A DNA stretch of 64,000 bases from assembly GCF_009709575.1 (NCBI RefSeq), contig NZ_WIXO01000001.1:372001-436000 (forward strand), written 5' to 3'. The DNA is from Streptomyces taklimakanensis (GTDB lineage: Bacteria > Actinomycetota > Actinomycetes > Streptomycetales > Streptomycetaceae). The notes under the pieces were generated by a model, which saw nothing but the letters and a program-made list of their open reading frames with translations, did not search any database and was not told the DNA's origin. Position numbers and translations under genes: made by a program. Positions within the stretch are counted from its first letter, which is position 1, and every line of letters begins with the position of its first letter. Shown here in pieces: positions 14,466-31,003 of the stretch.

Positions 14466-15428
14466 TCAGGAGCCGCTCCGCGTCGCCACCGGCTCCCGCA
14501 CGCGGCGCCGCGCGACGGGCACCACCAGCGGGGTTCCGGTCTCCGGATCGTCGATGACCCGGCAGGGCAGGCCGAAGACCTCCTCCACCAGGTCGGCCGT
14601 GACGATCCGCGAGGGGGGTCCCGCGGCGACGACCCGTCCGTCGCGCATGGCGATCAGATGGGTGGCGTAGCGGGCGGCGTGGTTGAGGTCGTGGAGGACG
14701 GCGACCAGGGTGCGGCCCTCCTCCTCGTGGAGACGGGTGCACAGGTCGAGGACGTCGATCTGGTGGGCGAGGTCGAGGTAGGTGGTCGGCTCGTCCAACA
14801 GCAGCAGGGGCGTCTGCTGGGCCAGGGCCATGGCGATCCACACCCGCTGCCGCTGTCCGCCGGAGAGTTCGTCCACGGCGCGGTCGGCGAGTTCGGCGAC
14901 CCCGGTGGAGGCCATGGAGTCGGCGACGACGCGCTCGTCCTCCCGCGACCACTGGCGCAGCAGTCCCTGGTGCGGGTAGCGCCCGCGGGAGACCAGCTCG
15001 GAGACGGAGATGCCCTCCGGGGCGACGGAGGACTGCGGCAGCAGGCCGAGGGTCCGGGCGACCTGCTTGGCGTTGAGCGAGGAGATGTCCCTGCCGTCCA
15101 GGAGCACCGAACCGGCGGCCGGCTTGAGCATCCGGGACAGGGCACGCAGCAAGGTGGACTTGCCGCACGCGTTGGGTCCGATGATGACGGTGAAGGAGTG
15201 GTCGGGTATCGCGACCGTGAGCTCCCGCGAGATCGTCCGCCGGTCGTAGGCGAGGGTGAGGCTCTCGCCGCCCAGCCTGGTCTCCCCGACCGCCGCGGAG
15301 ACGGTGGCTTCCGCCGTCGCGGAAGCGGCGTGGTGGCCCTGCGTCATCGGTTCTGCTCCGTCCTGGAAGTGTTCGCCGTCGGTGTCCGCCGTGGGGGGAC
15401 GCGTGGGAGTCCCGGTGCGCGCCCTCAT
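14466..15428 (-). CDS. Fe(III)-siderophore ABC transporter ATPase (FecE-like)
   Basis: About 320 residues. Walker A GPNACGKST, Q-loop LLPQSS, signature LSGGQRQRVWIAMALAQQ and Walker B LLLLDEPTTYLDLAHQ are intact. The ATG at 15426-15428 overlaps the permease stop as ATGA, the same junction found between the two permease genes, which is why I prefer it; an internal ATG at 15345-15347 with GGAG would remove 27 residues. It powers uptake of a ferric siderophore, most likely ferrioxamine given the divergent desE. Confidence 0.9.
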   Translation of the reverse strand: MRARTGTPTRPPTADTDGEHFQDGAEPMTQGHHAASATAEATVSAAVGETRLGGESLTLAYDRRTISRELTVAIPDHSFTVIIGPNACGKSTLLRALSRMLKPAAGSVLLDGRDISSLNAKQVARTLGLLPQSSVAPEGISVSELVSRGRYPHQGLLRQWSREDERVVADSMASTGVAELADRAVDELSGGQRQRVWIAMALAQQTPLLLLDEPTTYLDLAHQIDVLDLCTRLHEEEGRTLVAVLHDLNHAARYATHLIAMRDGRVVAAGPPSRIVTADLVEEVFGLPCRVIDDPETGTPLVVPVARRRVREPVATRSGS

Positions 15429-16453
15429 ATGCGTCCCGCCTTCCGTTGGGTGGCCAGCAACCAGATCAGGTAGCCGCCGCCGAGCATTCCGGTGATCACG
15501 CCCACCGCGAGCTGTCGTCCGGCGAAGAGGTTCTGGGCGACCCAGTCGGCCGCCACCAGCAGGGCCGCCCCCATGCAGGCGGCGGGCACGAGGTTGGGGC
15601 CGGGGGCGCGGGTGAGGCGCTTGGCGAGCTGGGGCGCGGTGAGCGCCACGAAGGAGACCGGCCCGGCGCAGGCGGCGGCGAAGGAGGTCAGGACGACGGC
15701 GGAGCCCAGCAGCACGGCGCGGGACCGCTCGACGCGGACCCCCAGGGAGTGGGCGGCGTCGTCGCCCATCTCCGTCATCAGCAGGCTGCGCCCGAAACCG
15801 ACGACGACGACCGGCCCCAGCACCAGCAGCGCGATGAGCAGGGGGGTGAGTTCGGGCCAACCGCGGCCGTCCAGACTGCCCGTCATCCACAGGATCGCGC
15901 GGGATGCCTCCATCAGCTTGCCGCGGGTGAGCAGATAGCTGTTGACGCCGGTGAGCATCGCCATGACGCCGATGCCGGTGAGGACCAGTCGGTAGCCGTG
16001 GACCCCCCGGCGCCAGGCGAGCGCGTAGATCAGCGTCCCGGTGAGGAGGCCGCCGGCGACGGCGCCGCCGGCCAGCGCCGCGCTGCTGCCACCGGCGAGG
16101 ACGACCAGGAGCGCGCCGGTGGAGGCTCCCTGGGTGAGGCCGAGCATGTCGGGACTGCCGAGCGGGTTGCGCACCACGGACTGGAAGACCGCTCCGGCCA
16201 GGCCGAGGGAGGCGCCGACGAGGAGGGCCGCCAGTACCCGGGGCAGTCGCAGCTCGTTGACGACGAAGTTCTGGGCGGGGGTGCCGCCGCCGCCGAGGGT
16301 GGTCAGCACCTCGCCGGGGCTCATGGGGTAGTCGCCGCCGCCGATGGTGACGACGCCGACGGCCAGGGCCACGAGGAGGCAGCCGAGCACGGCCGTCAGG
16401 GCCCGGGGGCGGTAGCGGAGGCTGAGGGTCTGTCCGACGCGGAGGGTTCTCAT
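15425..16453 (-). CDS. Fe(III)-siderophore ABC transporter permease (FecCD family), second subunit
   Basis: A 342-residue permease with about nine membrane segments. NELRLPRVLAALLVGASLGLAGAVFQSVVRNPLGSPDMLG is the classic FecCD signature, and GVITGMLGGGYLIWLL closes the protein. The ATG overlaps the stop of the preceding permease gene (ATGA at 16450-16453), so the two half-channels are translationally coupled. It forms the heterodimeric channel with the product of 16450-17520. Confidence 0.92.
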   Translation of the reverse strand: MRTLRVGQTLSLRYRPRALTAVLGCLLVALAVGVVTIGGGDYPMSPGEVLTTLGGGGTPAQNFVVNELRLPRVLAALLVGASLGLAGAVFQSVVRNPLGSPDMLGLTQGASTGALLVVLAGGSSAALAGGAVAGGLLTGTLIYALAWRRGVHGYRLVLTGIGVMAMLTGVNSYLLTRGKLMEASRAILWMTGSLDGRGWPELTPLLIALLVLGPVVVVGFGRSLLMTEMGDDAAHSLGVRVERSRAVLLGSAVVLTSFAAACAGPVSFVALTAPQLAKRLTRAPGPNLVPAACMGAALLVAADWVAQNLFAGRQLAVGVITGMLGGGYLIWLLATQRKAGRI

Positions 16454-17520
16454 GCCGCCGCCACCTTCCGCCGCCGCAGGATGTAGAGGAAGAGGGGGCC
16501 GCCCAGGACGGCGGTGACGACGCCGACCTGGAGTTCGCCGGGACGGCCGAGGAGCCGGCCGAGCACGTCGGAGCCGAGCAGCAGCACGGGGGCGAGCACC
16601 GCGCAGTAGGGGAACATCCAGCGCAGGTCGGGACCGGTGATGGCGCGGACGAGGTGGGGCACCATCAGCCCGACGAAGACGATGGGACCGGCGGCCGCGG
16701 TGGCGGCGCCGCACAGCAGGGTGATGGCGACGATGCAGGCGATCCGCACCCGTTCGGGCCGGGAGCCCAGCGCGCGGGCCTGGTCCTCGCCGAGCGCGAG
16801 GGCGTTGAGCGGGCGGGCCAGCGCGAAGGCCGCCAGCACACCGGCGGATATCCACGGCAGCACCTGGACGACGGTGTCCATCCGGGCCGTGGCCAACGAG
16901 CCGACCGTCCAGAAGCGCATGCGCTCCAGCGAGGCACTGTCCATGATCATCGCCGCGTTGACGTAGGAGAACAGGGCCGCGTTGAGCGCGGCACCGGCCA
17001 GGGCCAGCCGCGCCGGAGTGGCGCCGCGTCCGCCGCCGATCGTGTAGACGAGGGCGGAGACGGCCGCGGCACCCACCATGGCGAAGCCCACGTAGCCGGT
17101 GAAGCCCGTCACGCCGAGGAAGGTGATGGCGGTGACGACGGCGGCCGATGCCCCGGCGTTGATGCCCAGCAGTCCGGGGTCGGCCAGCGGGTTGCGGGTC
17201 AGGGCCTGCATCACCGCTCCGGCCAGACCGAGCGCGACGCCGATCAGCAGCCCGAGCAGGGTGCGCGGCAGCCGCATCTCGTGGACCACGGCCCAGGTGG
17301 GCGAGCCGCTGTCGAGGAGGCCGTCCCAGATCTGGTCCATCGACAGCGACCGGGCGCCGAAGCCCAGGCTCAGCACCAACAGCAGCAGCAGGACGCCCAG
17401 GGCGCCGACCAGTCCGGCGGAACGCAGGGCGTCACGGGCTCCGGAGGAGCGGCTCTCGGCGGGAGGCGGCGGCTCCGGTGCCGCGCTCCGCTGGGCGGGC
17501 GGTGGCTTGATCACTGACAC
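16450..17520 (-). CDS. Fe(III)-siderophore ABC transporter permease (FecCD family), first subunit
   Basis: A 356-residue permease. After a Pro/Ala-rich cytoplasmic N-terminus it carries HEMRLPRTLLGLLIGVALGLAGAVMQALTRNPLADPGLLG and VGLMVPHLVRAITGPDLRW, standard for FecCD proteins. It starts with GTG at 17518-17520 with GGAG upstream. It is the first gene of the minus-strand importer operon and lies 48 bases from an iron box shared with desE, so iron should repress it. Confidence 0.92.
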   Translation of the reverse strand: MSVIKPPPAQRSAAPEPPPPAESRSSGARDALRSAGLVGALGVLLLLLVLSLGFGARSLSMDQIWDGLLDSGSPTWAVVHEMRLPRTLLGLLIGVALGLAGAVMQALTRNPLADPGLLGINAGASAAVVTAITFLGVTGFTGYVGFAMVGAAAVSALVYTIGGGRGATPARLALAGAALNAALFSYVNAAMIMDSASLERMRFWTVGSLATARMDTVVQVLPWISAGVLAAFALARPLNALALGEDQARALGSRPERVRIACIVAITLLCGAATAAAGPIVFVGLMVPHLVRAITGPDLRWMFPYCAVLAPVLLLGSDVLGRLLGRPGELQVGVVTAVLGGPLFLYILRRRKVAAA

Positions 17521-17567: not shown

Positions 17568-17586
17568 TTTGGTTAGGTTAACCTAA
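17568..17586. promoter_or_regulatory. iron box (DmdR1/IdeR-type operator) between importer operon and desE
   Basis: TTTGGTTAGGTTAACCTAA matches the 19-bp iron-box consensus TTAGGTTAGGCTAACCTAA at 17 of 19 positions and contains a perfect 16-bp palindrome at 17572-17587. It is centred between divergent genes, so one Fe-DmdR dimer pair could repress both the importer operon and desE. Confidence 0.9.
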
Positions 17587-17648: not shown

Positions 17649-18686
17649 ATGTCCCACGCAAGAACCGTCAACCTCTCCCGTCGGGGGCTCCTCGCGGCAG
17701 GCGGCGCCCTCGGGCTGGGCGCCCTGCTCTCGGCGTGCGGGGACGGCGGCGGTTCGGGGACTTCGAAAACCGCCGACAAGGGCAGCGGCCCCTGGTCGTT
17801 CACCGACGACCGGGGGGAGAAGGTCACCACCGACGGAACGCCCGAGCGCATCGTGGCCTTCACCGGCACCGCCGCCGCCCTGGCCGACTTCGGACTGAAG
17901 GACAGGATCGTCGGCGTCTTCGGCGAGACGACCCTGGAGGACGGCTCGGCCCATCCGCAGGCCGGCGACCTGGATGTGAAGAAGATCGAGGTCATCGGGA
18001 ACGTCTGGGGCGAGTTCGACATCGAGAAGTACGCGGCCCTCAACCCCGAGCTGCTGGTCACCCACCAGTACGACGAGGGCTCGCTGTGGTACGTGCCGGA
18101 CGAGAGCAAGGACAAGATCCTCAAGCTCGCCCCCAGCGTCGCCGTCCAGGTGGCCGACGTCTCCCTCCTCAAGCCGATCCAGCGCTACGCGGAGCTGGCC
18201 GAGTCCCTCGGCGCCGACCTGAAGTCCCAGCAGGTCACCGACGGCAAGGCCCGGTTCGAGGCAGCGGCCGAGAAGCTCCGCAAGGCCGCCAAGGCGAGCG
18301 GCGGACTGCGGGTGCTGGCCGCCTCCGGCAGCGCCGACTACTTCTACGTCTCCACCCCCGCGCCCGCGGCCGACCTGAAGTACTTCGCCGAGCTCGGCGT
18401 GAACTTCGTCGTTCCCGAGGACGTCGAGGCCTCCGGCGGTTACTTCGAGAGCCTCAGCTGGGAGAACGCCGGGCAGTACGAGGCGGATCTGATCATCCTC
18501 GACAACCGCGACACCGCGCTGCAGGCCGAGGATCTGGAGTCCAAGCCGACCTGGAAGGCGCTCCCGGCCGTCAAGGCCGGTCAGGTCGCCGAGTGGGACC
18601 CGGTTCCGCGCTTCTCCTACCAGGGCGCCGCCCCGCTGCTGGAGAACCTGGCCGACGCCATCGAGAAGGCCGAGAAGCTCGGCTGA
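17649..18686 (+). CDS. desE: ferric siderophore-binding lipoprotein (DesE-like)
   Basis: A 345-residue FhuD/FepB-type binding protein. Twin arginines at 11-12 and lipobox LSAC (Cys30) indicate Tat export and lipid anchoring. The fold runs from FTDDRGEKVTTDGTPERIVAFTGTAAAL to a typical C-terminus with GQVAEWDPVPRFSYQGAAPLLENL. It is followed by desF and desABCD exactly as in the S. coelicolor des locus, which supports ferrioxamine as ligand. The iron box at 17568-17586 lies about 60 bases upstream. Confidence 0.9.
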   Translation: MSHARTVNLSRRGLLAAGGALGLGALLSACGDGGGSGTSKTADKGSGPWSFTDDRGEKVTTDGTPERIVAFTGTAAALADFGLKDRIVGVFGETTLEDGSAHPQAGDLDVKKIEVIGNVWGEFDIEKYAALNPELLVTHQYDEGSLWYVPDESKDKILKLAPSVAVQVADVSLLKPIQRYAELAESLGADLKSQQVTDGKARFEAAAEKLRKAAKASGGLRVLAASGSADYFYVSTPAPAADLKYFAELGVNFVVPEDVEASGGYFESLSWENAGQYEADLIILDNRDTALQAEDLESKPTWKALPAVKAGQVAEWDPVPRFSYQGAAPLLENLADAIEKAEKLG

Positions 18687-18804: not shown

Positions 18805-19695
18805 ATGACACCGCGCACCGCCGTCCCGACCGCCCCCCGGCCGGCGCCCCGCCGCACCGCCGCCCGGACCGAGTCGCCGTTCCGCTTCTTCACCGCCGCG
18901 GTCGTGCGGCGCCGCAGGCTCGGGGCCTCCCTGGTCCGGATCACCTTCGGCGGGGAGGAGCTGAGGGAGTTCGCCGGTGGCGGCCGGGACCAGAGCCTCT
19001 CGCTCTTCCTGCCGCACCCCGGCCAGGCCGAGCCGGTCGTCCCGGTGGAGTTGGGCGACGCCTGGTTCGCCGCCTGGCGGGCGACGGACCCGGCGGTGCG
19101 CGCGGTCATGCGCTCCTACACCGTGGCCGGACAGCGGCCCCGGGAGGGCGAGGTGGACATCGACTTCGTCCTGCACGGCGACACCGGGCCCGCCACCCGG
19201 TGGGCGCGCCGCGCGCGGCCGGGGGACCGGGTGCGTCTGTTGGGGCCGCGGACCGCGGAGAACAAGAGCGTCGGCTTCCGCCCGCCGTGGGACGCCGACT
19301 GGGTGCTGTTGGCGGCGGACGAGACGGCGCTGCCGGCCGTGGCGGGCATCCTGGCGTGGCTGCCCGCCGGGGTCCGGGTGCGCGCGTGGATCGAGGTGCC
19401 CCGGGCGGAGGACGTCCGCGAACTGCCCACCGCGGCCGACGCCGAGGTCACCTGGCTGCCCAGGGAGGACCGGCACCGACACGGGACGGTGGTCGACGCC
19501 GTACGCGCGGCCGCGTTGCCCGAGGGCGCCCCGTACGCGTGGGTGGCCGGCGAGTCCGGCGCGGTGCGGGCGCTCCGCCGTCACCTGGTGCACGAACGCG
19601 GTGTCGCCCGCGGCCGGGTGTCCTTCTCCGGCTACTGGCGGCTGGGGGTCTCCGAGGAGGCCCTGCGCGCCGAGGCGCTCGCCGGCGCCGCCTGA
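18805..19695 (+). CDS. desF: siderophore-interacting FAD-dependent ferric reductase (DesF-like)
   Basis: A 296-residue SIP-family protein. RSYTVAG is the FAD-binding motif and DWVLLAADETALPAVAGIL the pyridine-nucleotide half; the C-terminal SFSGYWRLGVSEE is typical of the family. It is expected to release iron by reducing ferric siderophore in the cytoplasm. The ATG has an excellent AAGGAG site. It sits between desE and desA as in S. coelicolor. Confidence 0.92.
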   Translation: MTPRTAVPTAPRPAPRRTAARTESPFRFFTAAVVRRRRLGASLVRITFGGEELREFAGGGRDQSLSLFLPHPGQAEPVVPVELGDAWFAAWRATDPAVRAVMRSYTVAGQRPREGEVDIDFVLHGDTGPATRWARRARPGDRVRLLGPRTAENKSVGFRPPWDADWVLLAADETALPAVAGILAWLPAGVRVRAWIEVPRAEDVRELPTAADAEVTWLPREDRHRHGTVVDAVRAAALPEGAPYAWVAGESGAVRALRRHLVHERGVARGRVSFSGYWRLGVSEEALRAEALAGAA

Positions 19696-19713
19696 GGCGG
19701 AACGATTCCGCGT

Positions 19714-19749
19714 GGAGCCCCGCGCACCGTGAGAGGTACGCGGGGCTCC
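19714..19749 (+). terminator. terminator of the desEF transcript
   Basis: An 11-bp perfect stem (19714-19724 with 19739-19749) around a 14-base loop, just after the desF stop and upstream of the desA iron box. It separates the desEF and desABCD units. Confidence 0.7.
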
Positions 19750-19767
19750 GACATGATCAAAAGTAAC

Positions 19768-19786
19768 TTAGGATAGGCTCACCTAA
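19768..19786 (+). promoter_or_regulatory. iron box overlapping the desA promoter
   Basis: TTAGGATAGGCTCACCTAA matches the iron-box consensus at 17 of 19 positions. The hexamer TAGGAT at 19769-19774 inside it is a good Streptomyces -10, so repressor binding would block the desABCD promoter directly. Confidence 0.9.
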
Positions 19787-19817
19787 CTAAAAGCCCCCCG
19801 ATCCGGAGGACCTTCGC

Positions 19818-21395
19818 GTGCGCCCCCAGGGATCCCCCTCCCCCCTCGCTCGTGCCGACGCGGCCGGCCGCCCCGCCGACGATCCCCGTTCCCACCTGCT
19901 GAACAACGCCACCGCCGAGGAGTACCGGCGCCTGGTGTCCGACGGTGTGGCCCGGGTCGCCCGCACCGTCGCCGGAACCACCCGCCCGTTCACCGGGACC
20001 ACTCCCGGGGAGTTGGCCCCCGTGGTGGACGCCATCGACCTCGACCGCCCCCTGGGCGACGCGAGCGCCGCCCTGGAGGAGTTGGAGCGGGTCTACCTCC
20101 GCGACGCGGTCTACTTCCACCACCCCCGCTACCTGGCCCACCTCAACTGCCCGGTGGTACTCCCCGCCCTTCTCGGCGAGGCCGTCCTCTCCGCCGTCAA
20201 CTCCTCCCTGGACACCTGGGACCAGAGCGCGGGCGGCACGCTGATGGAGCGTCGGCTCGTCGACTGGACCGCCGCGCGCATCGGTCTGGGCCGGGCCGCC
20301 GACGGCGTCTTCACCAGCGGCGGCACCCAGTCCAACGTCCAGGCGCTGCTGTTGGCCCGCGAGGAGGCCTTCCGACTGCTGCGGAAGAACTCCGCCGCCC
20401 CGCCGCCGGTCTCCGCGATGCTGCCGAAACTGCGCGTCCTGACCTCCGAGGCCGCACACTTCTCCGTCCTCAAGGGCGCCAAGCTCCTCGGCCTGGAGCC
20501 GGACGCCGTCGTCCCCGTCCCCTGCGACGCCTCCCGTCGGATGCGCGTCGACGCCCTCGCCCACGAGGTGCGCCGCTGCCGGGAGGAGGGCCTGACGGTG
20601 ATGGCCGTCTCCGCCACCGCCGGCACCACCGACTTCGGTTCCATCGACCCCCTGCCGGAGATCGCCGCGCTGTGCGAGGAGGCCGGGGTGTGGTTCCACG
20701 TCGACGCCGCGTACGGCTGCGGACTGCTGGCCTCCCCCACCCGGCGGCACCTGCTGGACGGCATCGAACGGGCCGACTCGGTCACCGTCGACTACCACAA
20801 GTCCTTCTTCCAGCCGGTCAGTTCCAGTGCCGTCGTCGTCCGCGACGGCACCACCCTGCGACACGCGACGTACCACGCCGACTACCTCAACCCGGCCCGC
20901 AACGTCGAGGAGCGCATCCCCAACCAGGTCGACAAGTCGATCCAGACCACCCGCCGCTTCGACGCCCTCAAACTGTGGCTGACCCTGCGCGTCATGGGCG
21001 CCGACGCCGTGGGCGAACTCTTCGACCGGGTCGTGGACCTGGCCGCCGACGCCTGGCGACTGCTGGACGCCGACCCCCGCTTCACGGTCGTCACCGAGCC
21101 CACCCTCTCCACCCTGGTCTTCCGCTACGTCCCCGCCCGCGCCGGGAACGGCGGCCCCGCGGCCGACGAGACGGCCGTGGACCTGGCCAACCTCCACGCC
21201 CGCGAGGCGATCGCCGCCTCCGGCGAGGCCGTGGTCGCCGCCACGGTCGTCGACGGTCGCCACCACCTGAAGTTCACGCTGCTCAACCCGGAGACCACGC
21301 TGGACGACATCCGCGCCGTCCTGGACCTGCTCGCCGCGCACGCCGAGGACCACCTCACCCGGAACGCCCGCCTGACCGGCACACCCGCCGCCTGA
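19818..21395 (+). CDS. desA: L-lysine decarboxylase DesA, desferrioxamine biosynthesis
   Basis: A 525-residue group II PLP decarboxylase that makes cadaverine from lysine, the first step of desferrioxamine synthesis. GVFTSGGTQSNVQALL, FHVDAAYGCGLL and DYHKSFFQPV (Lys328 binds PLP) are visible. The GTG start at 19818 follows GGAGGA by 7 bases. It opens the desABCD operon under an iron box. Confidence 0.95.
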   Translation: MRPQGSPSPLARADAAGRPADDPRSHLLNNATAEEYRRLVSDGVARVARTVAGTTRPFTGTTPGELAPVVDAIDLDRPLGDASAALEELERVYLRDAVYFHHPRYLAHLNCPVVLPALLGEAVLSAVNSSLDTWDQSAGGTLMERRLVDWTAARIGLGRAADGVFTSGGTQSNVQALLLAREEAFRLLRKNSAAPPPVSAMLPKLRVLTSEAAHFSVLKGAKLLGLEPDAVVPVPCDASRRMRVDALAHEVRRCREEGLTVMAVSATAGTTDFGSIDPLPEIAALCEEAGVWFHVDAAYGCGLLASPTRRHLLDGIERADSVTVDYHKSFFQPVSSSAVVVRDGTTLRHATYHADYLNPARNVEERIPNQVDKSIQTTRRFDALKLWLTLRVMGADAVGELFDRVVDLAADAWRLLDADPRFTVVTEPTLSTLVFRYVPARAGNGGPAADETAVDLANLHAREAIAASGEAVVAATVVDGRHHLKFTLLNPETTLDDIRAVLDLLAAHAEDHLTRNARLTGTPAA

Positions 21396-21416
21396 CTCCC
21401 CTCACCCGGAGACGAC

Positions 21417-22718
21417 GTGTCCACCCAGCACGATTTCATAGCCATCGGGCTCGGCCCCTTCAACCTGGGCCTGGCCTGCCTCACCGAGCCGATCGACGAC
21501 CTCGACGGGCTCTTCCTGGAGAGCCGCTCCGAGTTCGACTGGCACCCCGGCATGCTGTTGGAGGGCGTCACCCTGCAGACGCCGTTCATGGCGGACCTGG
21601 TGACCCTGGCCGACCCGACCTCCCCGTACTCCTTCCTCAACTACCTCAAGGAGTCCGGACGGCTGTACCCGTTCTACATCCGCGAGAACTTCTATCCGCT
21701 GCGGAGCGAGTACAACGCCTACTGCCGTTGGGCCGCCGCCCGCCTCTCGTCGGTCCGCTTCGGTCGGGAGGCCGTGGCCACCTCCTACGACGAGACCGAC
21801 GGCCTCTACACCGTCACCACCCGCGACACCGCGACCGGCGAGCGCACCGAACACCGCGCCCCCCGGCTGGTGATCGGCACCGGCACCCCGCCCTACGTGC
21901 CCGAGGCGTGCGAGGGCCTGGGGGGCGACGCGATCCACAACTCCCGCTACCTGGAGCACCGGGAGGCCCTGAAGGCCAAGCGGAGCGTCACCGTCGTCGG
22001 CAGCGGCCAGAGCGCCGCCGAGATCTACCACGACCTGCTGTCGGAGATCGACACCCGCGGATACCGGCTGAACTGGGTCACCCGCTCCCCGCGGTTCTTC
22101 CCGCTGGAGTACACCAAGCTGACCCTGGAGATGACCTCCCCGGACTACATCGACTACTTCCACGCCCTGCCGGAGGCCACCCGACACCGGCTGGAGGGTG
22201 AGCAGAAGGGCCTGTTCAAGGGCATCGACTCCGAGCTGATCAACGACATCTTCGACCTGCTGTACGCCAAGAGCGTCACCGGTCCCGTCCCCACCCGGCT
22301 GTTGACCAACACCGCCCTCACCTCCGCCTCCCACGACGAGGCGAGCGGCACCTACACCCTGGGCCTGCACCAGGTCGAGCAGGACAAGGAGTTCACCCTC
22401 ACCACCGAGGGCCTGATCCTGGCCACCGGCTACCGCCACCGTGTCCCCGCCTTCCTCGACGGCATCCGCGACCGGCTCCGCTTCGACGGCTCGGGCCGCT
22501 TCGACGTCACCCGCGACTACGCCATCGACGTCACCGGCCACGGCGTCTTCCTCCAGAACGGCGCCGTCCACACCCACAGCGTCACCTCGCCGGACCTGGG
22601 CATGGGCCCCTACCGCAACGCGTGCGTCATCCGCGACATCCTCGGCCGTGAGGTCTACCCGGTCGAGAAGTCCATCGCCTTCCAGGACTTCGGCGCCCCC
22701 GAGGGAGGCATCGCGTGA
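21417..22718 (+). CDS. desB: cadaverine N-hydroxylase DesB
   Basis: A 433-residue FAD- and NADPH-dependent N-monooxygenase of the lysine/ornithine hydroxylase family, making N-hydroxycadaverine. The FAD loop GLGPFNLGL is near residue 11 and the NADPH loop [12 protein letters not shown] near residue 195; LILATGY is the conserved C-terminal motif. It starts with GTG 21 bases after desA and overlaps desC by a GTGA junction. Confidence 0.95.
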
Positions 22719-23287
22719 GCGACGTCCTCTTCCACCGCGAGGATCCCGAACTGGGCGGATTCTCCGTGGTCACCCTCGACCCCCGGGCCGACGCCCCCCT
22801 GCTGCACTCCTGGGTGACCCACCCCAAGGCCGTGTACTGGATGATGCAGGACGCCGACGAGGCGCGGGTCGCCCACGAGTACGAGAGGATCGCCGAGCAC
22901 CCCCACCACGACGCCTTCCTCGGTCTGCACCAAGGCCGCCCGGCGTTCCTCGTCGAACGTTACGACCCCGCGCACGTGGAGCTGGCCGGGCTGTACGACA
23001 ACGAGCCGGGCGACGTCGGGATGCACTTCCTCACCGCGCCGTCCGACACGCCCGTCCACGGCTTCACCCGGGCCGTGATCACCACGGTGATGGCGATGCT
23101 CTTCGCCGACCCGGCCACCCGGCGCGTGGTCGTCGAGCCCGACGTCCGCAACACCGCCGTGCACGCCCTCAACGCCGCCGTCGGGTTCGAGGTCGTCGAG
23201 ACGATCGCCAAGCCCGAGAAAGAGGCCCTGCTCAGCATCTGCACCCGCCGGCAGTTCGAGGAAGCCGTACGAGGAGCCGCCCTGTGA
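22715..23287 (+). CDS. desC: N-hydroxycadaverine acyltransferase DesC
   Basis: A 190-residue IucB-like GNAT acyltransferase that adds acetyl or succinyl to N-hydroxycadaverine. [20 protein letters not shown] and [25 protein letters not shown] are family landmarks. The GTG start overlaps the desB stop and the gene ends in a GTGA overlap with desD. A diverged relative lies at 28989-29612. Confidence 0.95.
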
Positions 23288-25116
23288 CCACCCCTTCCCG
23301 GACCTCCCCCCACAGCGTTCCGCCGCACTCCGATCCGCACGGTGCCGTGGCCCACCTGACCCCCGCCACCTGGGACACCGCCGTACGGCTGCTGCTGCGC
23401 AAGGCTCTGTCGGAGTTCTCGCACGAGCGCCTCCTGACCCCCACCGCGCTGGGCGACGGGCGCTACGCCGTCACCGGCGACGACGGCCGCGTCGAGTACC
23501 GCTTCACCGCCCGGCTGATGGCACTCGACCACTGGTGGATCGACGCCGACAGCATCACCCGGCTGCGCGGGGGCGCCGAGGTGCCGTTGGACGCCTTCGC
23601 CTTCTTCACCGAGTTCCGCGGCGCGCTCGGCCTGAGCGACGAGGTCCTCCCCGTCTACCTGGAGGAGATCGGCTCCACCCTCGCGAGCACCGCGTACAAG
23701 CTGACGAAGAAACCCGTCACCGCCGAGGAGTTGGCCGCCGCCGACTTCCAGGCGATCGAGACCGGCATGACCGAGGGGCATCCCTGTTTCGTCGCCAACA
23801 ACGGCCGCCTGGGCTTCGGTGCCCACGAGTACCTGGCCTACGCCCCCGAGGCCGCCTCCCCGGTGCGGCTGTTGTGGGTGGCCGCCCACCGCGACCACAC
23901 CACCTTCACCTGCTCCGGCGACACCGACTACGACACGCTGCTCCGCGCCGAGCTGGGCGAGGCCACCGTGGAGCGCTTCGCCGCCGTCCTGCGCGGTCAG
24001 GGCCTGGAGCCGGCGGACTACCTGCTGATACCGGTCCACCCCTGGCAGTGGTGGAACAAGCTCGCCGTGACGTTCTCCGCCGAGGTCGCCCAGCGACGCA
24101 TCGTCCCGCTGGGCGAGGGCGAGGACGAGTACCTGGCCCAGCAGTCCATCCGGACCTTCTTCAACACCGACGACCCGACCAAGCACTACGTCAAGACGGC
24201 CCTGTCCGTGCTCAACATGGGCTTCATGCGGGGGCTGTCCGCCGCCTACATGGAGGCCACCCCCGCCATCAACGACTGGCTGGCCGACCTGATCGCGGGC
24301 GACCCCGTGCTGCGCGCCACCGGACTGAGCGTCATCCGCGAACGCGCCGCCGTCGGTTACCGGCACCCCGGCTACGAGGCGGCCACCGACCGCTACTCGC
24401 CCTACCGCAAGATGCTCGCCGCACTGTGGCGGGAGAGCCCCGTCCCACAGCTCCGGCCGGGGCAGCGCCTGGCCACCATGGCGTCCCTGCTCCACGTCGA
24501 CCGCGACGGGAACTCGCTGGCCGCCGCGTTGATCGCCCGCTCCGGACTGAATGCCGAGGAGTGGTTGGGCCGCTACCTGGACGCCTACCTCACCCCGCTG
24601 CTGCACAGCTTCTACGCCCACGACCTGGTGTACATGCCGCACGGCGAGAACGTCATCCTCGTCCTCGAGGACGACGCCGTGGCACGGGTGGTGTTCAAGG
24701 ACATCGCCGAGGAGATCGTGGTGATGGACCCGGAGGCGCAGGTGCCGCCGGAGGTGGAGCGCATCCGCGCCGAGGTCCCCGAGGACATGCGGTTGCTGTC
24801 GATCCTCACCGACGTCTTCGACTGCTTCCTGCGCCACCTGGGGGCGATCCTCGCCGACCGGGGCGTGCTGACCGAGGACGCCTTCTGGCGCACCGTCGCC
24901 GACGCCGTGGTGCGCTACCAGGAGTCCGTGCCGGAGCTGGCCGAGCGCTTCGAGCGGTACGACATCTTCGCCGAGGAGTTCGCCCTGTCCTGCCTCAACC
25001 GGCTCCAACTGCGCGACAACCGGCAGATGGTGGACCTGGCCGACCCCTCCGGGGCGCTCCAGCTCGTCGGCACCCTGCGGAACCCCATCGCCCCCTACGC
25101 GCCCACGGGGGCCTGA
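23284..25116 (+). CDS. desD: NIS synthetase DesD, desferrioxamine assembly
   Basis: A 610-residue IucA/IucC-family NRPS-independent siderophore synthetase that oligomerises and cyclises N-succinyl-N-hydroxycadaverine with ATP. TEGHPCFVANNGRLGFG, PVHPWQWWNK, KTALSVLNMGFMRGLS and YMPHGENVILVLED are typical ATP- and substrate-site motifs. It starts with GTG overlapping the desC stop (GTGA at 23284-23287). Confidence 0.95.
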   Translation: MTTPSRTSPHSVPPHSDPHGAVAHLTPATWDTAVRLLLRKALSEFSHERLLTPTALGDGRYAVTGDDGRVEYRFTARLMALDHWWIDADSITRLRGGAEVPLDAFAFFTEFRGALGLSDEVLPVYLEEIGSTLASTAYKLTKKPVTAEELAAADFQAIETGMTEGHPCFVANNGRLGFGAHEYLAYAPEAASPVRLLWVAAHRDHTTFTCSGDTDYDTLLRAELGEATVERFAAVLRGQGLEPADYLLIPVHPWQWWNKLAVTFSAEVAQRRIVPLGEGEDEYLAQQSIRTFFNTDDPTKHYVKTALSVLNMGFMRGLSAAYMEATPAINDWLADLIAGDPVLRATGLSVIRERAAVGYRHPGYEAATDRYSPYRKMLAALWRESPVPQLRPGQRLATMASLLHVDRDGNSLAAALIARSGLNAEEWLGRYLDAYLTPLLHSFYAHDLVYMPHGENVILVLEDDAVARVVFKDIAEEIVVMDPEAQVPPEVERIRAEVPEDMRLLSILTDVFDCFLRHLGAILADRGVLTEDAFWRTVADAVVRYQESVPELAERFERYDIFAEEFALSCLNRLQLRDNRQMVDLADPSGALQLVGTLRNPIAPYAPTGA

Positions 25117-25122
25117 TCCACC

Positions 25123-26673
25123 GTGCCGACGACCGACCCGACCGCCCAAGCGGCGGCCCCGCCCCCCGGTCCGGTCCCCGAGGCCGGCGGCAGGGACGGA
25201 CAGCCCGGCGGGCACCCGGCCCGCTGGGCGATCCTGGCCGTCGTCTGCCTGGCCGAGCTGGTGGTGGTGCTCGACAACACCGTGCTCAACGTGGCGATCC
25301 CGTCCCTCACCTCCGAGCTGGGCGCGTCCACCGCCGACGTGCAGTGGATGATCAACGCCTACGCGCTGGTGCAGGCGGGCCTGCTGCTGACCGCGGGCAG
25401 CGCCGCCGACCGCTACGGCCGCAAGCGGATGCTGCTGGCCGGACTGGTCCTGTTCGGGGCCGGCTCGCTGGCCGCCGGACTCGCCACCTCCGCCGATGGG
25501 CTCATCGCGGCCCGCGCCGGCATGGGCGTGGGCGCGGCCCTGCTGCTGACCACCACGCTCGCCGTGGTGATGCAGGTCTTCGAGGCCGAGGAACGCCCGA
25601 AGGCCATCGGCGTGTGGGGGGCCGTCAACGCCCTCGCCTACGCGGCCGGGCCGGTCGTCGGCGGTGTGGTGCTCGGCCACTACTGGTGGGGCGCGATCTT
25701 CCTGATCAACATTCCGGTGGTGCTGCTCGGCCTCGTCGCCGTCACCGTCCTCGTTCCCGAGAGCCGCGAGCCGCACGCCGGCCGGCCGGACCTGCCCGGG
25801 GTCGTGCTCTCCGTCATCGGCATGACCTCGGTCGTCTACGCCGTCATCACCGGCCCGGAGGAGGGCTGGACGTCACCGGGCGTCCTCGCCCCGGCCGCCC
25901 TCGGCGCCGTCGTGCTGGCCGCCTTCGTCGGCTGGGAGCGCCGCGCGGAGCACCCGATGCTCGACATGGACCTGTTCCGCAGCCGCCGCTTCACCGGGGC
26001 CGTGACGGGCGTCGTGCTGATCACCTTCGGCAGCGGCGGCGCCCTGTACCTGCTCACCCAGCAGTTCCAGTTCGTCCGCGACGACTCCCCGCTCCAGGCG
26101 GGGCTCAACCTCGCGCCCTTCGCCCTGACCGTGGTGCTGGTGAACTTCACCGGCGCCTCGGCCCGGCTCATCGCCCGCCTGGGCCTGCCGCTCTCGATCG
26201 CCTCCGGCATGGTGACGATGGCGGCCGGGCTGGCTCTCGTCGCCCTCGTCGGCGACGGCGGCTACGGCGGAGTGCTGGCCGGGCTGGTGCTGATGGGGGC
26301 GGGGTGCGGCGTGGCCAACCCGGCGATCGCCGAGGCCGTTATGGGCGCGATCCCCAAGGAGAAGGCGGGCGCTGGCGCGGGGGTCAACGGCACCCTGTCG
26401 GAACTGGGCACCGGGCTGGGCGTCGCCGTGCTCGGTGCCGTCCTCGTCTCCCGGTTCGCCGCCCTGCTGCCGGACTCGGTGGGCACCGCCGAGTCGCTGC
26501 CCGCCGCGCTGGAGGCGGCCGCCGGTGCGGCCGAGCGCGCGATGGTGGCCGAGGCGTTCGCCTCGGGGTTGCGCGTCGGCCAGTTGGTCGGCGCGGGCGC
26601 GGTCCTGCTGGGCGGCTGCGTGGCCGGGCTGCTGTTGGGCCGGGCCGTGCGGCCGCGGCGGCGAGGGGAGTGA
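25123..26673 (+). CDS. DHA2-family MFS exporter
   Basis: A 516-residue transporter with about 14 membrane segments. VVVLDNTVLNVAIPSL (motif D1), GSAADRYGRKRMLLAG (motif A) and GPVVGGVV (motif C) mark the drug:H+ antiporter-2 group (EmrB/QacA). It starts six bases after desD on the same strand with no terminator between, so it is probably cotranscribed. The likely role is export of desferrioxamine or a tailored derivative; a general drug pump is the alternative. Confidence 0.9.
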   Translation: MPTTDPTAQAAAPPPGPVPEAGGRDGQPGGHPARWAILAVVCLAELVVVLDNTVLNVAIPSLTSELGASTADVQWMINAYALVQAGLLLTAGSAADRYGRKRMLLAGLVLFGAGSLAAGLATSADGLIAARAGMGVGAALLLTTTLAVVMQVFEAEERPKAIGVWGAVNALAYAAGPVVGGVVLGHYWWGAIFLINIPVVLLGLVAVTVLVPESREPHAGRPDLPGVVLSVIGMTSVVYAVITGPEEGWTSPGVLAPAALGAVVLAAFVGWERRAEHPMLDMDLFRSRRFTGAVTGVVLITFGSGGALYLLTQQFQFVRDDSPLQAGLNLAPFALTVVLVNFTGASARLIARLGLPLSIASGMVTMAAGLALVALVGDGGYGGVLAGLVLMGAGCGVANPAIAEAVMGAIPKEKAGAGAGVNGTLSELGTGLGVAVLGAVLVSRFAALLPDSVGTAESLPAALEAAAGAAERAMVAEAFASGLRVGQLVGAGAVLLGGCVAGLLLGRAVRPRRRGE

Positions 26674-26697
26674 CGGAGGCGGTATGGAGGGGACACG

Positions 26698-28992
26698 GTG
26701 AGGGGGACCGACGTGGCCGTGGAGGTCCACCGGGACGACCGGGGCGTCCCGCACCTGCGCGCGGGCGACGCGAGGGAGCTGGCCCGGGCCCAGGGACGCA
26801 ACGCGGCGTTGGACCGCGCCTGGCAGATCGAGGTCGAGCGGCACCGCGCCCGGGGGACCACGGCCGCCTTCCTCGGCGCCGAGGCCGTCCCGTGGGACCG
26901 GTTCGCGCGACAGGCGTGTCTGGAGGACACCGCCCGACGGTGCGCGGAGACCCTGGAACGGGTGGACCCGGACACCGCCGCCTGGGTGGGGGCCTACGTC
27001 GACGGGGTCAACGAGGCCCTCGCCGAGGGAGCCCGCAGGGCGCCGGAGTTCGAGGCGGTCGGCCTCTCCCCCGGCACCTGGCGGCCCTGGACGCCGCTGG
27101 CCGTCTGGCTCTCCACCCACGTCCTGTTCGCCGGCTTCCCCACCAAGTTCTGGCGCGACGCCGTGGCCCGCCGCCTCGGCCCCGAGTGGATCGGGGTGTT
27201 CGCCACCGACGGCCCCGGGACCTCCGGCAGCAACGGTTGGCTGGTGGCCGGGGAACGCACCGCCACCGGCGCCGCGATCATCGCCGGGGACCCCCACCGG
27301 TTCATCGAGGCCCCCGGCGTCTACCAGCAGATCCGGCTGGCCTGCCCGGAGTTCGACGTCGTCGGGCTCGCCGTCCCCGGTGTCCCCGGCATCGCCCACT
27401 TCGGCCACACCGGCCACGTGGCCTGGGCCATCACCAACGCCATGGCCGACTACCAGGACCTGTACCGCGAGCGGCTCCGACGCACCGGCCCGAACGGCAC
27501 GGAGCTGGAGGCCCTGGGGCCGGACGGCTGGCGGCCCGCCACCCGCCGCACCGAGACGATCGAGGTGGCCGACGCCGCCCCGGTGACGGTCGAGGTGATC
27601 GAGACCGAACGCGGTCCGGTGGTGGTCGACGGCCCCGAGGCGGAGGCGTGGTGCTCGGACGTGTCGGAAGTCTCGGACGTGTCGGAGGTCTCGGCGGAGC
27701 GGGGCGGCGACGCGGACGCCTGGTGGGCGATCGCCCTCCGCCATCCGCCGCGCGTCCGCGGGGACCTCGGCTTCGGTGTGCTGCCCGCGCTGCTGCGGGC
27801 CCGTGACGTCGCCGACGTGGACCGGGCCCTGGACGGCTGGGTGGAGCCCGTCAACGTCGTCCTGGCCGCCGACACCGCCGGCGGGACGCTGCACCGGGCG
27901 GCCGGTGCCGTCCCCGTGCGCCACCCGGACAACCGACTGCGGATCGTGCCCGCCTGGGATCCCGAACACGCCTGGCGGGGGTGGTTCGCCCCCATGCCGC
28001 GCGAGCGCGTCGAGGGCACGGCGGTCATGGCCAACGACAGGGGAGTCGCCGCGCCGCTCGGCGTGGAGTTCGCGCCCCCGCACCGGGCCGAGCGCATCCG
28101 GGAACTGTTGGAGGAGTCGGACCGCTGGTCCGCCGCCGACATGGTCGCCGTCCACCGGGACACCCTTCTGGCCTCGGCCGCTCCCCTGTTGGCCCTGCTG
28201 GCCCTGCTGGATCGGCCGGACCTGCCGGATCGGCGGAGGGCACCGGACGGGGACGGCCCCGGGAACGGTTCCGGAGACGGTTCCGGGGCCTTCGACCGGC
28301 CGCTGAGTCCCGCCGCCCACCGGCTGCGGGAGCGGCTGCTGCGCTGGGACCGCCGCATGGACGCCGACAGCGTCGACGCCGCGTCGTTCGCCGCCGTCCG
28401 CACCGGGACCGTACGGCGGCTGGCGGACCATCCGCTGCTGCGTCCGCTCGCGGACCTCCCGCCCCTGCCCGAGGTGCTGCGTCCCTGGCTCGCGCTCGTG
28501 CCGCGCGTCGGCTACGCCCTGGAACACCTGTTGGCGACGGACCGACTGCCGTTCGCGGACCGTGTCGCCGCCGTACGGGCGGCCCTGGAGGAGGTGGCGG
28601 CGCGGGAGGCCGACGCGGCCGGGCCGCCCGCGCGCTGGGGCGACACGCACCGACTCGCGCCCTGGCAGGCCCTGCCCTGCGACGGTCCCGACCCGTGGCC
28701 GGGCCTGTCCGGCGACCACGACTGCGTGCGGGCGACCTCCAGCGTTCCCGGCGTCACCGACCTGTGCGCCCGCGCCTCCGCCGCCCGCTACGTGTGGGAC
28801 CTCGCCGACCGGGGGAACAGCGCCTGGGTGGTGCCGCTGGGCACCTCGGGCGTACCCGGACACCCACACCACCGCGACCAGCTCCCGCTGTGGGTACGCT
28901 GCGACCTCGTTCCCGTCGTCACCGACTGGGACCGGCTCGTCCGGGAACCGGCCGAGCCGCCCGGCACCCCACCCGACCGAGGAGAGACGTGA
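26698..28992 (+). CDS. penicillin acylase family Ntn hydrolase (cytoplasmic)
   Basis: A 764-residue penicillin-amidase-family protein. The presumptive autocleavage site is TSG/SNGWLVAG, with Ser178 as the new N-terminal nucleophile; IIAGDPHRFIEAPGVYQQIRL and HFGHTGHVAWAITNAMADYQDLY follow as in acylases. There is no signal peptide, so it should act inside the cell, unlike classical secreted acylases. A DVSEVSDVSEVS repeat sits near residues 321-332. It lies 24 bases after the exporter and overlaps the next gene by GTGA. It could trim or exchange acyl groups of siderophores. Confidence 0.88.
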   Translation: MRGTDVAVEVHRDDRGVPHLRAGDARELARAQGRNAALDRAWQIEVERHRARGTTAAFLGAEAVPWDRFARQACLEDTARRCAETLERVDPDTAAWVGAYVDGVNEALAEGARRAPEFEAVGLSPGTWRPWTPLAVWLSTHVLFAGFPTKFWRDAVARRLGPEWIGVFATDGPGTSGSNGWLVAGERTATGAAIIAGDPHRFIEAPGVYQQIRLACPEFDVVGLAVPGVPGIAHFGHTGHVAWAITNAMADYQDLYRERLRRTGPNGTELEALGPDGWRPATRRTETIEVADAAPVTVEVIETERGPVVVDGPEAEAWCSDVSEVSDVSEVSAERGGDADAWWAIALRHPPRVRGDLGFGVLPALLRARDVADVDRALDGWVEPVNVVLAADTAGGTLHRAAGAVPVRHPDNRLRIVPAWDPEHAWRGWFAPMPRERVEGTAVMANDRGVAAPLGVEFAPPHRAERIRELLEESDRWSAADMVAVHRDTLLASAAPLLALLALLDRPDLPDRRRAPDGDGPGNGSGDGSGAFDRPLSPAAHRLRERLLRWDRRMDADSVDAASFAAVRTGTVRRLADHPLLRPLADLPPLPEVLRPWLALVPRVGYALEHLLATDRLPFADRVAAVRAALEEVAAREADAAGPPARWGDTHRLAPWQALPCDGPDPWPGLSGDHDCVRATSSVPGVTDLCARASAARYVWDLADRGNSAWVVPLGTSGVPGHPHHRDQLPLWVRCDLVPVVTDWDRLVREPAEPPGTPPDRGET

Positions 28993-29612
28993 CCTCCGAC
29001 GCCACCCCCTCGTCCGCGTCCGCCGGGGCTTCCCCGCCCCGGCGCCGCGAGGCCGTGCACGAGACCCACGTGGACGGCTTCGGCACGGTCCGCGTCGTCC
29101 CCGTGGACCCCGACCGCGACGCCGACCTGCTGCACGCCTGGGTGACCCAGGACAGGGCCCGCTACTGGGGGATGCTCGACCACACCCGCGAGCAGGTCCG
29201 GGAGATCTACGCCCACCTGGATTCCCTGTCCACGCACCACGCGTACCTGATCCACCGCGACGACCGCCCGGTCGCGCTCTTCCAGACGTACCTGCCCGAG
29301 GCCGACCCGATCGGCGAGCACTACGACATGCGGCCGGGGGACTTCGGCTTCCACCTGCTGATCGGCCCCGCCGACGGCGCGCCGGAACCGGGCTTCACCG
29401 ACACGCTGGTGACCGTCTTCCTCACCCACGTGCTGACCGAGGATCCCGGCCGCCGGCGGATCGTCGCCGAACCCGACGCCCGCAACCACAAGGCCCACGC
29501 CCGTCTGGCGCGGATCGGGTTCGTCCTCGGTCCCGAGGTCGAACTGCCGCACAAGCGGGCCCGGATGGCCTTCCTGGACCGGGACGCCTTCCTCTCCCGC
29601 ACCGCGCGCTGA
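28989..29612 (+). CDS. second DesC/IucB-like siderophore acyltransferase (GNAT)
   Basis: A 207-residue acyltransferase clearly related to DesC: LLHAWVTQDRARYWGMLDH aligns with [19 protein letters not shown], and RRIVAEPDARNHKAHARLARIGFVLG with [26 protein letters not shown] 20-residue Ser/Pro-rich N-terminal extension is extra. The GTG start overlaps the acylase stop (GTGA), so the two are probably made together. It may install a different acyl group on a hydroxylamine or free amine of the siderophore. Confidence 0.88.
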   Translation: MTSDATPSSASAGASPPRRREAVHETHVDGFGTVRVVPVDPDRDADLLHAWVTQDRARYWGMLDHTREQVREIYAHLDSLSTHHAYLIHRDDRPVALFQTYLPEADPIGEHYDMRPGDFGFHLLIGPADGAPEPGFTDTLVTVFLTHVLTEDPGRRRIVAEPDARNHKAHARLARIGFVLGPEVELPHKRARMAFLDRDAFLSRTAR

Positions 29613-29742
29613 TCCCGGCGCGGGCGGTACCCGGCGCGGGGACCGGTCGGGACGCGGACGTGGTGCGGCGGGGGTGTGGGGACCGCCGAACGGCCGCGCC
29701 CCGGGTGTCGCCACCGCGGGTCCATCGGCCATACTTCCCGCC

Positions 29743-30342
29743 GTGGAACAGCGCATAGGTGAGATGACCCCGTCCGTGCCCGCCGCCGGGGTGGACCCGG
29801 CCTCCATCCCCGGCATCACCTCGCCCGGTCCCGACGAGGCGGAGGGCGCCACCGCCGGGGCGGCCGGGGCCGAGGGGAGTCCGCGGCGGTCCTCCGAGCC
29901 CCTCGACGAGGTGGTGGACGCCGAACCCGACGCGGCGGCGGTGGAGGCCGAAGAGAGCCAGGAGAGCGAGGAGGACGACGACACCGGGGGGCCGACCTTC
30001 GAGGTCCACGACCACCGCGGTTCGATCCTCGCCGGCCGCTCCGGCGTCACCCTCCGGCTGGACGGCGAGGAGGCCCGGTTCGACTGGGACGAGATCGGCG
30101 CGGTCCAGATCGACCTTCCCCGCTTCGGCCGCCGGTTCTCCGTCACCGTCCACACCGTCGCCCGCCGTTGGTACGACGCCGACGTCCTGGCGCCCTCCCG
30201 GAACGCCCTCGGGGAGTGGGAGGCACGGCTCGACGCCGTTCTGGACGCCTACTTCGAGGACTCCTCCGCCACGGACGGCGCGGAGGGCGAGTCGGGGGAG
30301 GCGGACGAGGGAGCGGAGAGGGGAGCGGACACCGGGTCGTAG
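29743..30342 (+). CDS. acidic protein of unknown function
   Basis: About 199 residues. The first 85 are Ala/Pro/Glu-rich and disordered-looking; a compact domain follows (FEVHDHRGSILAGRSGVTLRLDGEEARFDWDEIGAVQIDLPRFGRRFSVTVH...), then an acidic tail. I do not recognise the family. GTG 29743 lies eight bases after a CATACT hexamer and could be leaderless; ATG 29764 is the alternative. No signal peptide or membrane segment is seen. Confidence 0.65.
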   Translation: MEQRIGEMTPSVPAAGVDPASIPGITSPGPDEAEGATAGAAGAEGSPRRSSEPLDEVVDAEPDAAAVEAEESQESEEDDDTGGPTFEVHDHRGSILAGRSGVTLRLDGEEARFDWDEIGAVQIDLPRFGRRFSVTVHTVARRWYDADVLAPSRNALGEWEARLDAVLDAYFEDSSATDGAEGESGEADEGAERGADTGS

Positions 30343-30420
30343 GGCTCCACGGCGCCGGCTCCCGGCGCGTGCGGCCGCGCGCCGCCGGTCGGTGGACCGG
30401 TCGAGGAGCGCGGGTGGAAT

Positions 30421-30445
30421 GTCTGACCTGCGAAGGAGAGGGTAT
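30421..30445 (+). promoter_or_regulatory. sigma-B-like promoter of the hemerythrin gene
   Basis: GTCT (30421-30424), 15-base spacer, GGGTAT (30440-30445) fits the Streptomyces sigma-B/sigma-H stress promoter pattern GNNT-N14-16-GGGTAY. It lies about 49 bases before the ATG at 30494. Confidence 0.55.
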
Positions 30446-30493
30446 CCGCCGGGCCGGACCACACCGAAGCCCACGATGTGAGGAGCCGTCACC

Positions 30494-30994
30494 ATGTCGT
30501 CCGACACCGACGTCGTCGAACTGATCCTGCGCGACCACCGCAGGATGGAGGACCTCTTCCGCACCCTGCGCAACGTCGAGGCCGACCGGGCCGGTGCGTT
30601 GGCGGAGTTCTCCGCGCTGTTGATCGCCCACGCCCGGGCCGAGGAGGAGAAGGTCTACCCCGCCCTGCGGCGTTACAAGAACGTGGACGACGAGGACGTC
30701 GAGCACGGTGTGCACGAGCACCAGGAGGCCAACGAAGCCCTGCTCGCCCTGCTGCGGGTGGAGGACACCGCGTCCGAGGAGTGGGGGGAGAAGCTGGAGG
30801 AGCTGGTGACGGCGGTCAACCACCACGCGGACGAGGAGGAGCGCACCCTGCTCAACGACGCGCGGGAGAACGTGAGCGACGAGCGACGCGCACAGCTCGG
30901 GAAGGACTTCCACAAGGCCCGCTCGGAACACCTGGCCGCGGACTGCGGGAGCGTGGAGAACGTGCGGGCGATCGTGGAGTCGGCCGACGACTGA
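30494..30994 (+). CDS. hemerythrin-domain protein
   Basis: A 166-residue protein with an HHE-type hemerythrin domain. Candidate di-iron ligands lie in LILRDHRRMEDLF, LIAHARAEEEKVYPAL, VHEHQEANEAL and VNHHADEEERTLL, in the usual four-helix order. The ATG at 30494 follows GAGGAG. Such proteins bind oxygen or nitric oxide or sense redox state; a sigma-B-like promoter upstream fits a stress role. Confidence 0.88.
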   Translation: MSSDTDVVELILRDHRRMEDLFRTLRNVEADRAGALAEFSALLIAHARAEEEKVYPALRRYKNVDDEDVEHGVHEHQEANEALLALLRVEDTASEEWGEKLEELVTAVNHHADEEERTLLNDARENVSDERRAQLGKDFHKARSEHLAADCGSVENVRAIVESADD

Positions 30995-31003
30995 GCCCGT
31001 TCC

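Follow-up and report, generated by a model that had tools for sequence, protein, structure and literature searches.

The window, that is, the whole stretch of 64,000 nucleotides analyzed from Streptomyces taklimakanensis, carries the desferrioxamine (DFO) biosynthesis genes desABCD, which are followed on the same strand by a DHA2-type MFS pump and the pair desG and desH (Table 1). The gap between desD and the pump is 6 bp, that between the pump and desG is 24 bp, and the desG stop codon overlaps the desH start codon in GTGA. These boundaries had been given in a preliminary description and match the sequence to the base; the families named there, i.e., DHA2 efflux, penicillin amidase, and siderophore-type GNAT, are confirmed by Pfam and NCBIfam profiles. 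As had been claimed for the region between desD and the three genes behind it, a search of the plus strand from position 19000 to 31000 gave no terminator-like site. Judged from the gaps and overlaps, desABCD-MFS-desG-desH would be transcribed as one unit. The locus is wider than first described, extending upstream over desF, desE, and a divergent FecCD/ABC importer and including two iron boxes. Directly 3′ of desH, a 192-amino acid protein without a Pfam or NCBIfam match is encoded on the same strand (window positions 29764-30342).

Table 1: Features of the desferrioxamine locus. Positions are those of the window.
Feature	Position	Strand	Evidence or remark
Divergent ferri-siderophore ABC importer	14466..17520	-	two FecCD-type permeases and an ATPase
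Importer ATPase	within 14466-15890	-	ABC_tran E=1e-29
Importer permease 2	within 15425-16855	-	read from ORF sequence
Importer permease 1	16450-17520	-	FecCD PF01032 E=9e-91 for 16453-17520
Iron box 1 (TTTGGTTAGGTTAACCTAA)	17568..17586		between importer and desE; 2 mismatches to palindromic consensus
desE, ferri-siderophore binding lipoprotein	17649..18686	+	Peripla_BP_2 PF01497 E=5.5e-18
desF, siderophore-interacting protein (ferri-siderophore reductase)	18805..19695	+	SIP PF04954 E=2e-40
Iron box 2 (TTAGGATAGGCTCACCTAA)	19768..19786		before desA; exact match to TTAGGNTANGCTNANCTAA
desA, lysine decarboxylase	19818..21395	+	Pyridoxal_deC PF00282 E=6e-65
desB, cadaverine N-monooxygenase	21417..22718	+	Lys_Orn_oxgnase PF13434 E=2e-128
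desC, N-hydroxycadaverine acyltransferase (succinyl)	22715..23287	+	Acetyltransf_8 PF13523 E=1e-51
desD, NIS synthetase	23284 (GTG)..25116, stop 25114-25116	+	IucA_IucC PF04183 E=6e-87; FhuF PF06276 E=1e-40
DHA2-type MFS pump, candidate desferrioxamine exporter, 516 aa	25123 (GTG)..26673	+	TIGR00711 above cut-off; des-linked clade
desG, penicillin-acylase-family Ntn hydrolase, 764 aa	26698 (GTG)..28992	+	PF01804 E=8e-159, residues 8-746
desH, DesC-related GNAT, 207 aa	28989 (GTG)..29612	+	Acetyltransf_8 PF13523 E=3.6e-49

Six other Streptomyces (L004-L008, L010) have these genes in an identical order, so that the arrangement is not due to chance. Strains with this layout include S. megasporus NRRL B-16372 and S. 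albus NRRL F-4971. Pairwise identities, measured for three of the six, are 77-85% for the pump, 73-80% for the acylase, and 76-78% for the GNAT. The dN/dS values of the operon genes all lie below 1 and are given little weight, because the very high third-position GC compresses the synonymous rates.

Iron Boxes

Both boxes match, as sequences, the 19-bp iron box of the DmdR1/IdeR regulon. For iron box 2, 0.03 matches would be expected by chance, and it is a candidate DmdR1 operator for the entire desABCD-MFS-GH unit. For iron box 1, 0 such matches are expected in shuffled sequence, and an identical box is found at the equivalent position in L004-L010. The whole 6.1-Mb genome contains five iron boxes at up to three mismatches, two of them in this locus; those elsewhere are one at a divergent DesJ-like reductase/DesH-like pair, one at a FecCD/binding-protein pair, and one in an unclear setting. 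No transporter of the pump family was found near these other three boxes (within 1.5 kb on each side, and within 20 kb around the reductase pair). One iron box (G000:C1:777658-777676, L127) has two mismatches and no obvious iron gene in the surrounding 3 kb.

DesG and DesH

By sequence, the acylase/GNAT pair is assigned as DesG/DesH, and the statement in the preliminary description that such pairs have been so named was correct. It had also regarded their biochemical role as unsettled; a role was published in 2025. Stop-codon knock-outs of desG (SCO4049) and desH (SCO4050) in S. coelicolor lower DFO-B by approximately 1000-fold and 16-fold, respectively, with a rise in DFO-E, and complementation brings DFO-B back (PMC12161575). 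According to the proposal made there, the succinyl group of N-hydroxy-N-succinylcadaverine is taken off by DesG and an acetyl group is put on by DesH, by which DesD is provided with the acetyl monomer of DFO-B. Of 46 sequenced DFO producers, 36 have homologues of both genes, and strains without desGH make only uncapped DFOs (PMC12161575). The acyl-editing role is, hence, already known, and is transferred to the present locus by homology. The swap of acyl groups suggested earlier holds insofar as the pair would exchange such groups; the proposed substrate, however, is the monomer before DesD and not the finished desferrioxamine, because the knock-outs are explained by desuccinylation followed by acetylation (PMC12161575).

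The acylase contains a full-length Penicil_amidase domain with the Ser/Asn/His catalytic residues, and S178, N179, H200, and N446 are invariant among 11 homologues, Ser178 being the nucleophile. Glutaryl-7-ACA acylase and D-succinylase are among its best relatives of solved structure, and the closest characterized ones cleave glutaryl or succinyl groups. With these two enzymes DesG shares the Ntn-hydrolase family, the Ser nucleophile followed by Asn, and H200, which corresponds to the conserved His23 of their beta chain; action on dicarboxylic acyl groups is predicted likewise, and DesG is, thus, a predicted N-hydroxy-N-succinylcadaverine desuccinylase. Glutaryl-7-ACA acylase and D-succinylase are processed from signal-bearing precursors. 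DesG, in contrast, is devoid of a signal peptide; one is impossible, since just 8 open codons separate the start from the last in-frame stop codon before it, which bears out the earlier claim of a cytoplasmic acylase. The AlphaFold model of DesG has a mean pLDDT of 49, a confidence too low for use.

DesG and DFO synthesis occur together. DesD is present in 86 of 86 DesG-bearing Streptomyces (150-genome sample) and in 36 of 39 DesG-bearing genomes of a class-wide sample. That DesG might instead have nothing to do with DFO and act as an acylase on quorum signals (AHLs) or antibiotics, as family-level likeness to PvdQ and penicillin G acylases could suggest, is hardly conceivable in view of a score of 36.5 bits with the PvdQ model, whose cut-off is 950 bits, of the impossible signal peptide, and of the constant company of DesD in the Streptomyces sampled. 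Three genomes of a single genus (G063, G126, and G220; g39) encode a DesG-like protein of 53-57% identity and no DesD at the cut-off used; these organisms may make another hydroxamate or borrow siderophores.

The kinship of the GNAT to DesC, noted earlier, amounts to 37% identity over 171 residues, and DesH is a predicted N-hydroxycadaverine acetyltransferase. A comparison of alignment columns between DesC and DesH was tried as a test for acetyl versus succinyl transfer. The columns differ, but they cannot decide between the two groups, because the FWGM motif of DesH is also present in DfoC, which serves a DFO-E maker; the comparison was therefore discarded as not diagnostic. In a tree of 43 sequences, the DesC and DesH clades are separate (100/100), and the DesH of this operon groups with other des-linked DesH proteins (99/94). 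The genome encodes a third GNAT of the DesC/DesH type, DesH-like and 58% identical to DesH (L084:9144-10678; G000:C1:5667144-5668678), which groups with DesH of the desJGH type with moderate support (84/84). Its gene and that of a DesJ-like reductase diverge from an iron box with one mismatch, and desG is absent, so that this seems to be a desJ locus without desG but with a DesH. From the placement of the two DesH proteins in the tree, the desGH pair of the operon is probably a separate lineage from the detached desJGH set and not merely a relocated copy. In nearly all loci mapped, desG and desH are adjacent or fused. Fusions into a single open frame of 820-945 codons were seen in L026, L087, L089, L095, and L101, which belong to several families; such fusions have already been reported for S. 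atratus and Micrococcus.

Acylated or arylated siderophores had been put forward as the product of the operon. DesG and DesH would in that case add aryl or fatty-acyl caps to desferrioxamines, and the pump would be needed for the more hydrophobic products. DesG was in fact first hypothesized to make phenylacetyl-capped DFOs (reported in PMC12161575), and non-acetyl capped DFOs are among those reported from DFO producers. The S. coelicolor knock-outs, however, alter DFO-B and DFO-E, no arylated DFO was found there (PMC12161575), and the nearest characterized relatives of DesG act on succinyl or glutaryl groups. Such capping is considered unlikely; the product expected from monomer editing is ordinary acetyl-capped DFO-B, for which arylated forms are not required.

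The Pump

The pump scores 235.2 with the DHA2 efflux model TIGR00711 (curated cut-off, 230.2), and resembles the DHA2 drug:H+ antiporters, relatives of EmrB, LfrA, and SmvA, in fold family and length; a crude hydropathy count gives 12 segments versus the 14 of the family criterion. Unlike these antiporters, it is embedded in a siderophore operon and does not reach the cut-off of any named drug-pump model. A search of one genome each for 84,980 species yielded 133 relatives, and the further analysis covered the best 80. Among these best 80 of 133, the collinear arrangement desEF-ABCD-pump-GH (layout A) is found in L004-L008 and L010, with desF not detected in L010; desABCD-pump with divergent GH (layout B) in L011, L025, L049, L026, and L060; desABCD-pump with GH not within reach (layout C) in L009, L041, and L067; and stand-alone pumps (layout E) in Streptomyces. 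In layout D, seen in Micromonospora and Salinispora (L022, L038, L050, L052-L054, L058, and L079), a DesH-like gene, an iron box, a reductase, and the pump lie together. An iron box is present in all loci of layouts A to D and in none of layout E.

Twenty-four pumps whose genes are linked to desABCD, or else to a reductase (SIP)/DesH-like locus with an iron box, form one clade that spans Streptomycetaceae and Micromonosporaceae (layouts A to D without L067, and with L087 and L089 added). Its support is SH-aLRT 98 in a tree with 76 rows and UFBoot/SH-aLRT 100/98 in one with 50. In 16 of the members, the pump gene immediately follows desD, and DesD is encoded in every clade genome examined for it. 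Kept in two families and under several gene orders, the linkage is good evidence, by association, for export of desferrioxamine, or of a very similar product, by the clade; the pump of the present operon is accordingly a strong candidate for a DFO exporter.

According to another explanation, the pump would have come into the operon as an efflux pump for resistance or housekeeping and would not export desferrioxamine, with DesG and DesH acting as described above. DHA2 pumps are mostly drug exporters, and stand-alone paralogues of 60-68% identity, without an iron box, are common in Streptomyces with or without desD. These paralogues fall outside the clade, no unlinked member of which was found in the set examined; the linked pumps, by contrast, have siderophore genes with iron boxes next to them in two families and several layouts, which makes a casual insertion rather unlikely. 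The pump might also recycle iron-free siderophore after intracellular iron release, or export borrowed siderophores, instead of newly made DFO. This would suit its position in Micromonosporaceae, where the pump gene immediately follows that of a siderophore-interacting reductase and the two form part of a second iron-box locus, apart from desABCD. The eight Micromonosporaceae genomes concerned all have DesD (69-73% identity), however, and together with the 16 pumps directly behind desD this renders such a role decidedly unlikely. The interpretation of these eight loci as those of strains that lost DFO synthesis is ruled out by the DesD found elsewhere in all of them.

The pump L067:9992-11485 of Streptomyces sp. 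RPT161 lies directly behind desABCD, yet outside the des-linked clade. Forcing it inside is rejected (AU test, p 0.028, for a grouping chosen after seeing the tree), and an independent recruitment is possible; no DesG was found in this genome. At two loci of the Micromonosporaceae type (L060:2569-4521 and L087:13297-14541), a second, different MFS protein is located directly behind, or apparently joined to, a DesJ-like reductase beside desGH.

Rarity of the Arrangement

Adjacency of desD and the pump is rare. In a class sample of 297 actinomycete genomes, it was found in 3 of the 66 that bear desD (G000, G095, and G197), and in the 150-genome genus sample in 3 of 119 desD-bearing Streptomyces (G000, G324, and G358). 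The pump can, therefore, not be the general DFO exporter, and other producers must use other exporters. Co-occurrence of exporter, acylase, and acyltransferase with desD, which the preliminary description had proposed to look for, is seen in the six other Streptomyces, but in most genomes with DesG/DesH the pump does not stand beside the pair, and in several genomes it occurs with no desGH next to it, so that acyl editing can be separated from export. Of the coherent editing-and-export unit postulated earlier, the collinearity of the trio with desABCD and the sense of including an exporter stand.

Pumps of at least 58% identity are encoded in 80 of 119 desD-positive versus 15 of 31 desD-negative Streptomyces (150-genome sample). 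Since stand-alone pumps also occur in the latter, the wider pump family has other substrates and is no marker of DFO. The source genome has a stand-alone paralogue of its own (C1:3101033), 64% identical to the pump. In many Streptomyces, stand-alone paralogues are situated 13-26 kb from the detached desJGH (G209:C28, G294:C1, G057:C1, G133:C1, G262:C1, and others), which is probably core synteny; they are a possible source of the des-linked pump. As DFO exporters, the stand-alone pumps were dismissed, having no iron box nearby and being present in desD-negative genomes, and are treated as core-genome neighbors.

The dfoS gene product of Pantoea, which we take to be a permease/exporter, invites comparison. 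Its gene comes fourth, after the synthetase, in the DFO biosynthetic operon dfoJACS; unlike in the present operon, no desG/desH counterpart is mentioned for this enterobacterial system (PMC3137637). Colocalization of desG with the DFO cluster is on record for other actinomycetes (Cruz-Morales et al. 2017, as cited in PMC12161575), and desG beside desABCD was likewise found here, either divergent (layout B) or collinear (L094-L097). The four collinear loci, from other families, differ in having no exporter between desD and desG. With desJGH of S. coelicolor (SCO4048-4050; PMC12161575) the present operon shares the desG-desH pair, a DesC-related GNAT, an amidase-family DesG, and, as predicted from its boxes and by homology, respectively, iron-box control and control of DFO-B via a succinyl-to-acetyl swap on the monomer. 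In S. coelicolor, however, the set is detached from desABCD and lies beside the reductase gene desJ, whereas here the pair is inside the desABCD operon behind the pump, its DesH belongs to the des-operon lineage, and a second DesH-like gene stands without desG at the desJ-like locus.

Proposed Pathway and Significance

Summarizing, the locus would represent an iron-repressed transport-and-synthesis unit in which DesGH edit the monomers and the DHA2 pump exports desferrioxamines; a probability of roughly 0.7 is assigned to this reading. At low iron, a repressor of the DmdR/IdeR type would leave the box before desA, and desABCD-MFS-desG-desH would then be transcribed together. DesA, DesB, and DesC would provide N-hydroxy-N-succinylcadaverine, from part of which cytoplasmic DesG would strip the succinyl group, and DesH would re-acylate the freed N-hydroxycadaverine using acetyl-CoA. 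Given both succinyl and acetyl monomers, DesD would form DFO-B as well as DFO-E, as deduced by homology from the S. coelicolor knock-outs. The finished, iron-free desferrioxamines would be exported by the pump through proton antiport, and the iron complex would eventually be brought back and reduced by the divergent ABC importer, DesE, and DesF.

What is new here is the exporter candidate, a well-supported addition to the acyl editing known before. Desferrioxamine B, produced by Streptomyces, is used as a medicine, and no exporter for it is known; none is encoded in the DFO locus of S. coelicolor, for which the unlinked pumps SCO0680 or SCO6822 have been suggested (PMC12161575). By tying one pump to DFO genes, the operon and the clade offer a direct, testable candidate, and the operon is a compact cassette for DFO-B production. 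The balance leans slightly towards a broader scenario, in which the pump belongs to a dedicated actinobacterial DFO exporter family that arose by a single specialization of a generic Streptomyces DHA2 pump and has been carried with desABCD, or with a reductase/DesH-like iron-box locus, across Streptomycetaceae and Micromonosporaceae. If this is true, a single operon would cover import, reduction, synthesis, editing of monomers, and export.
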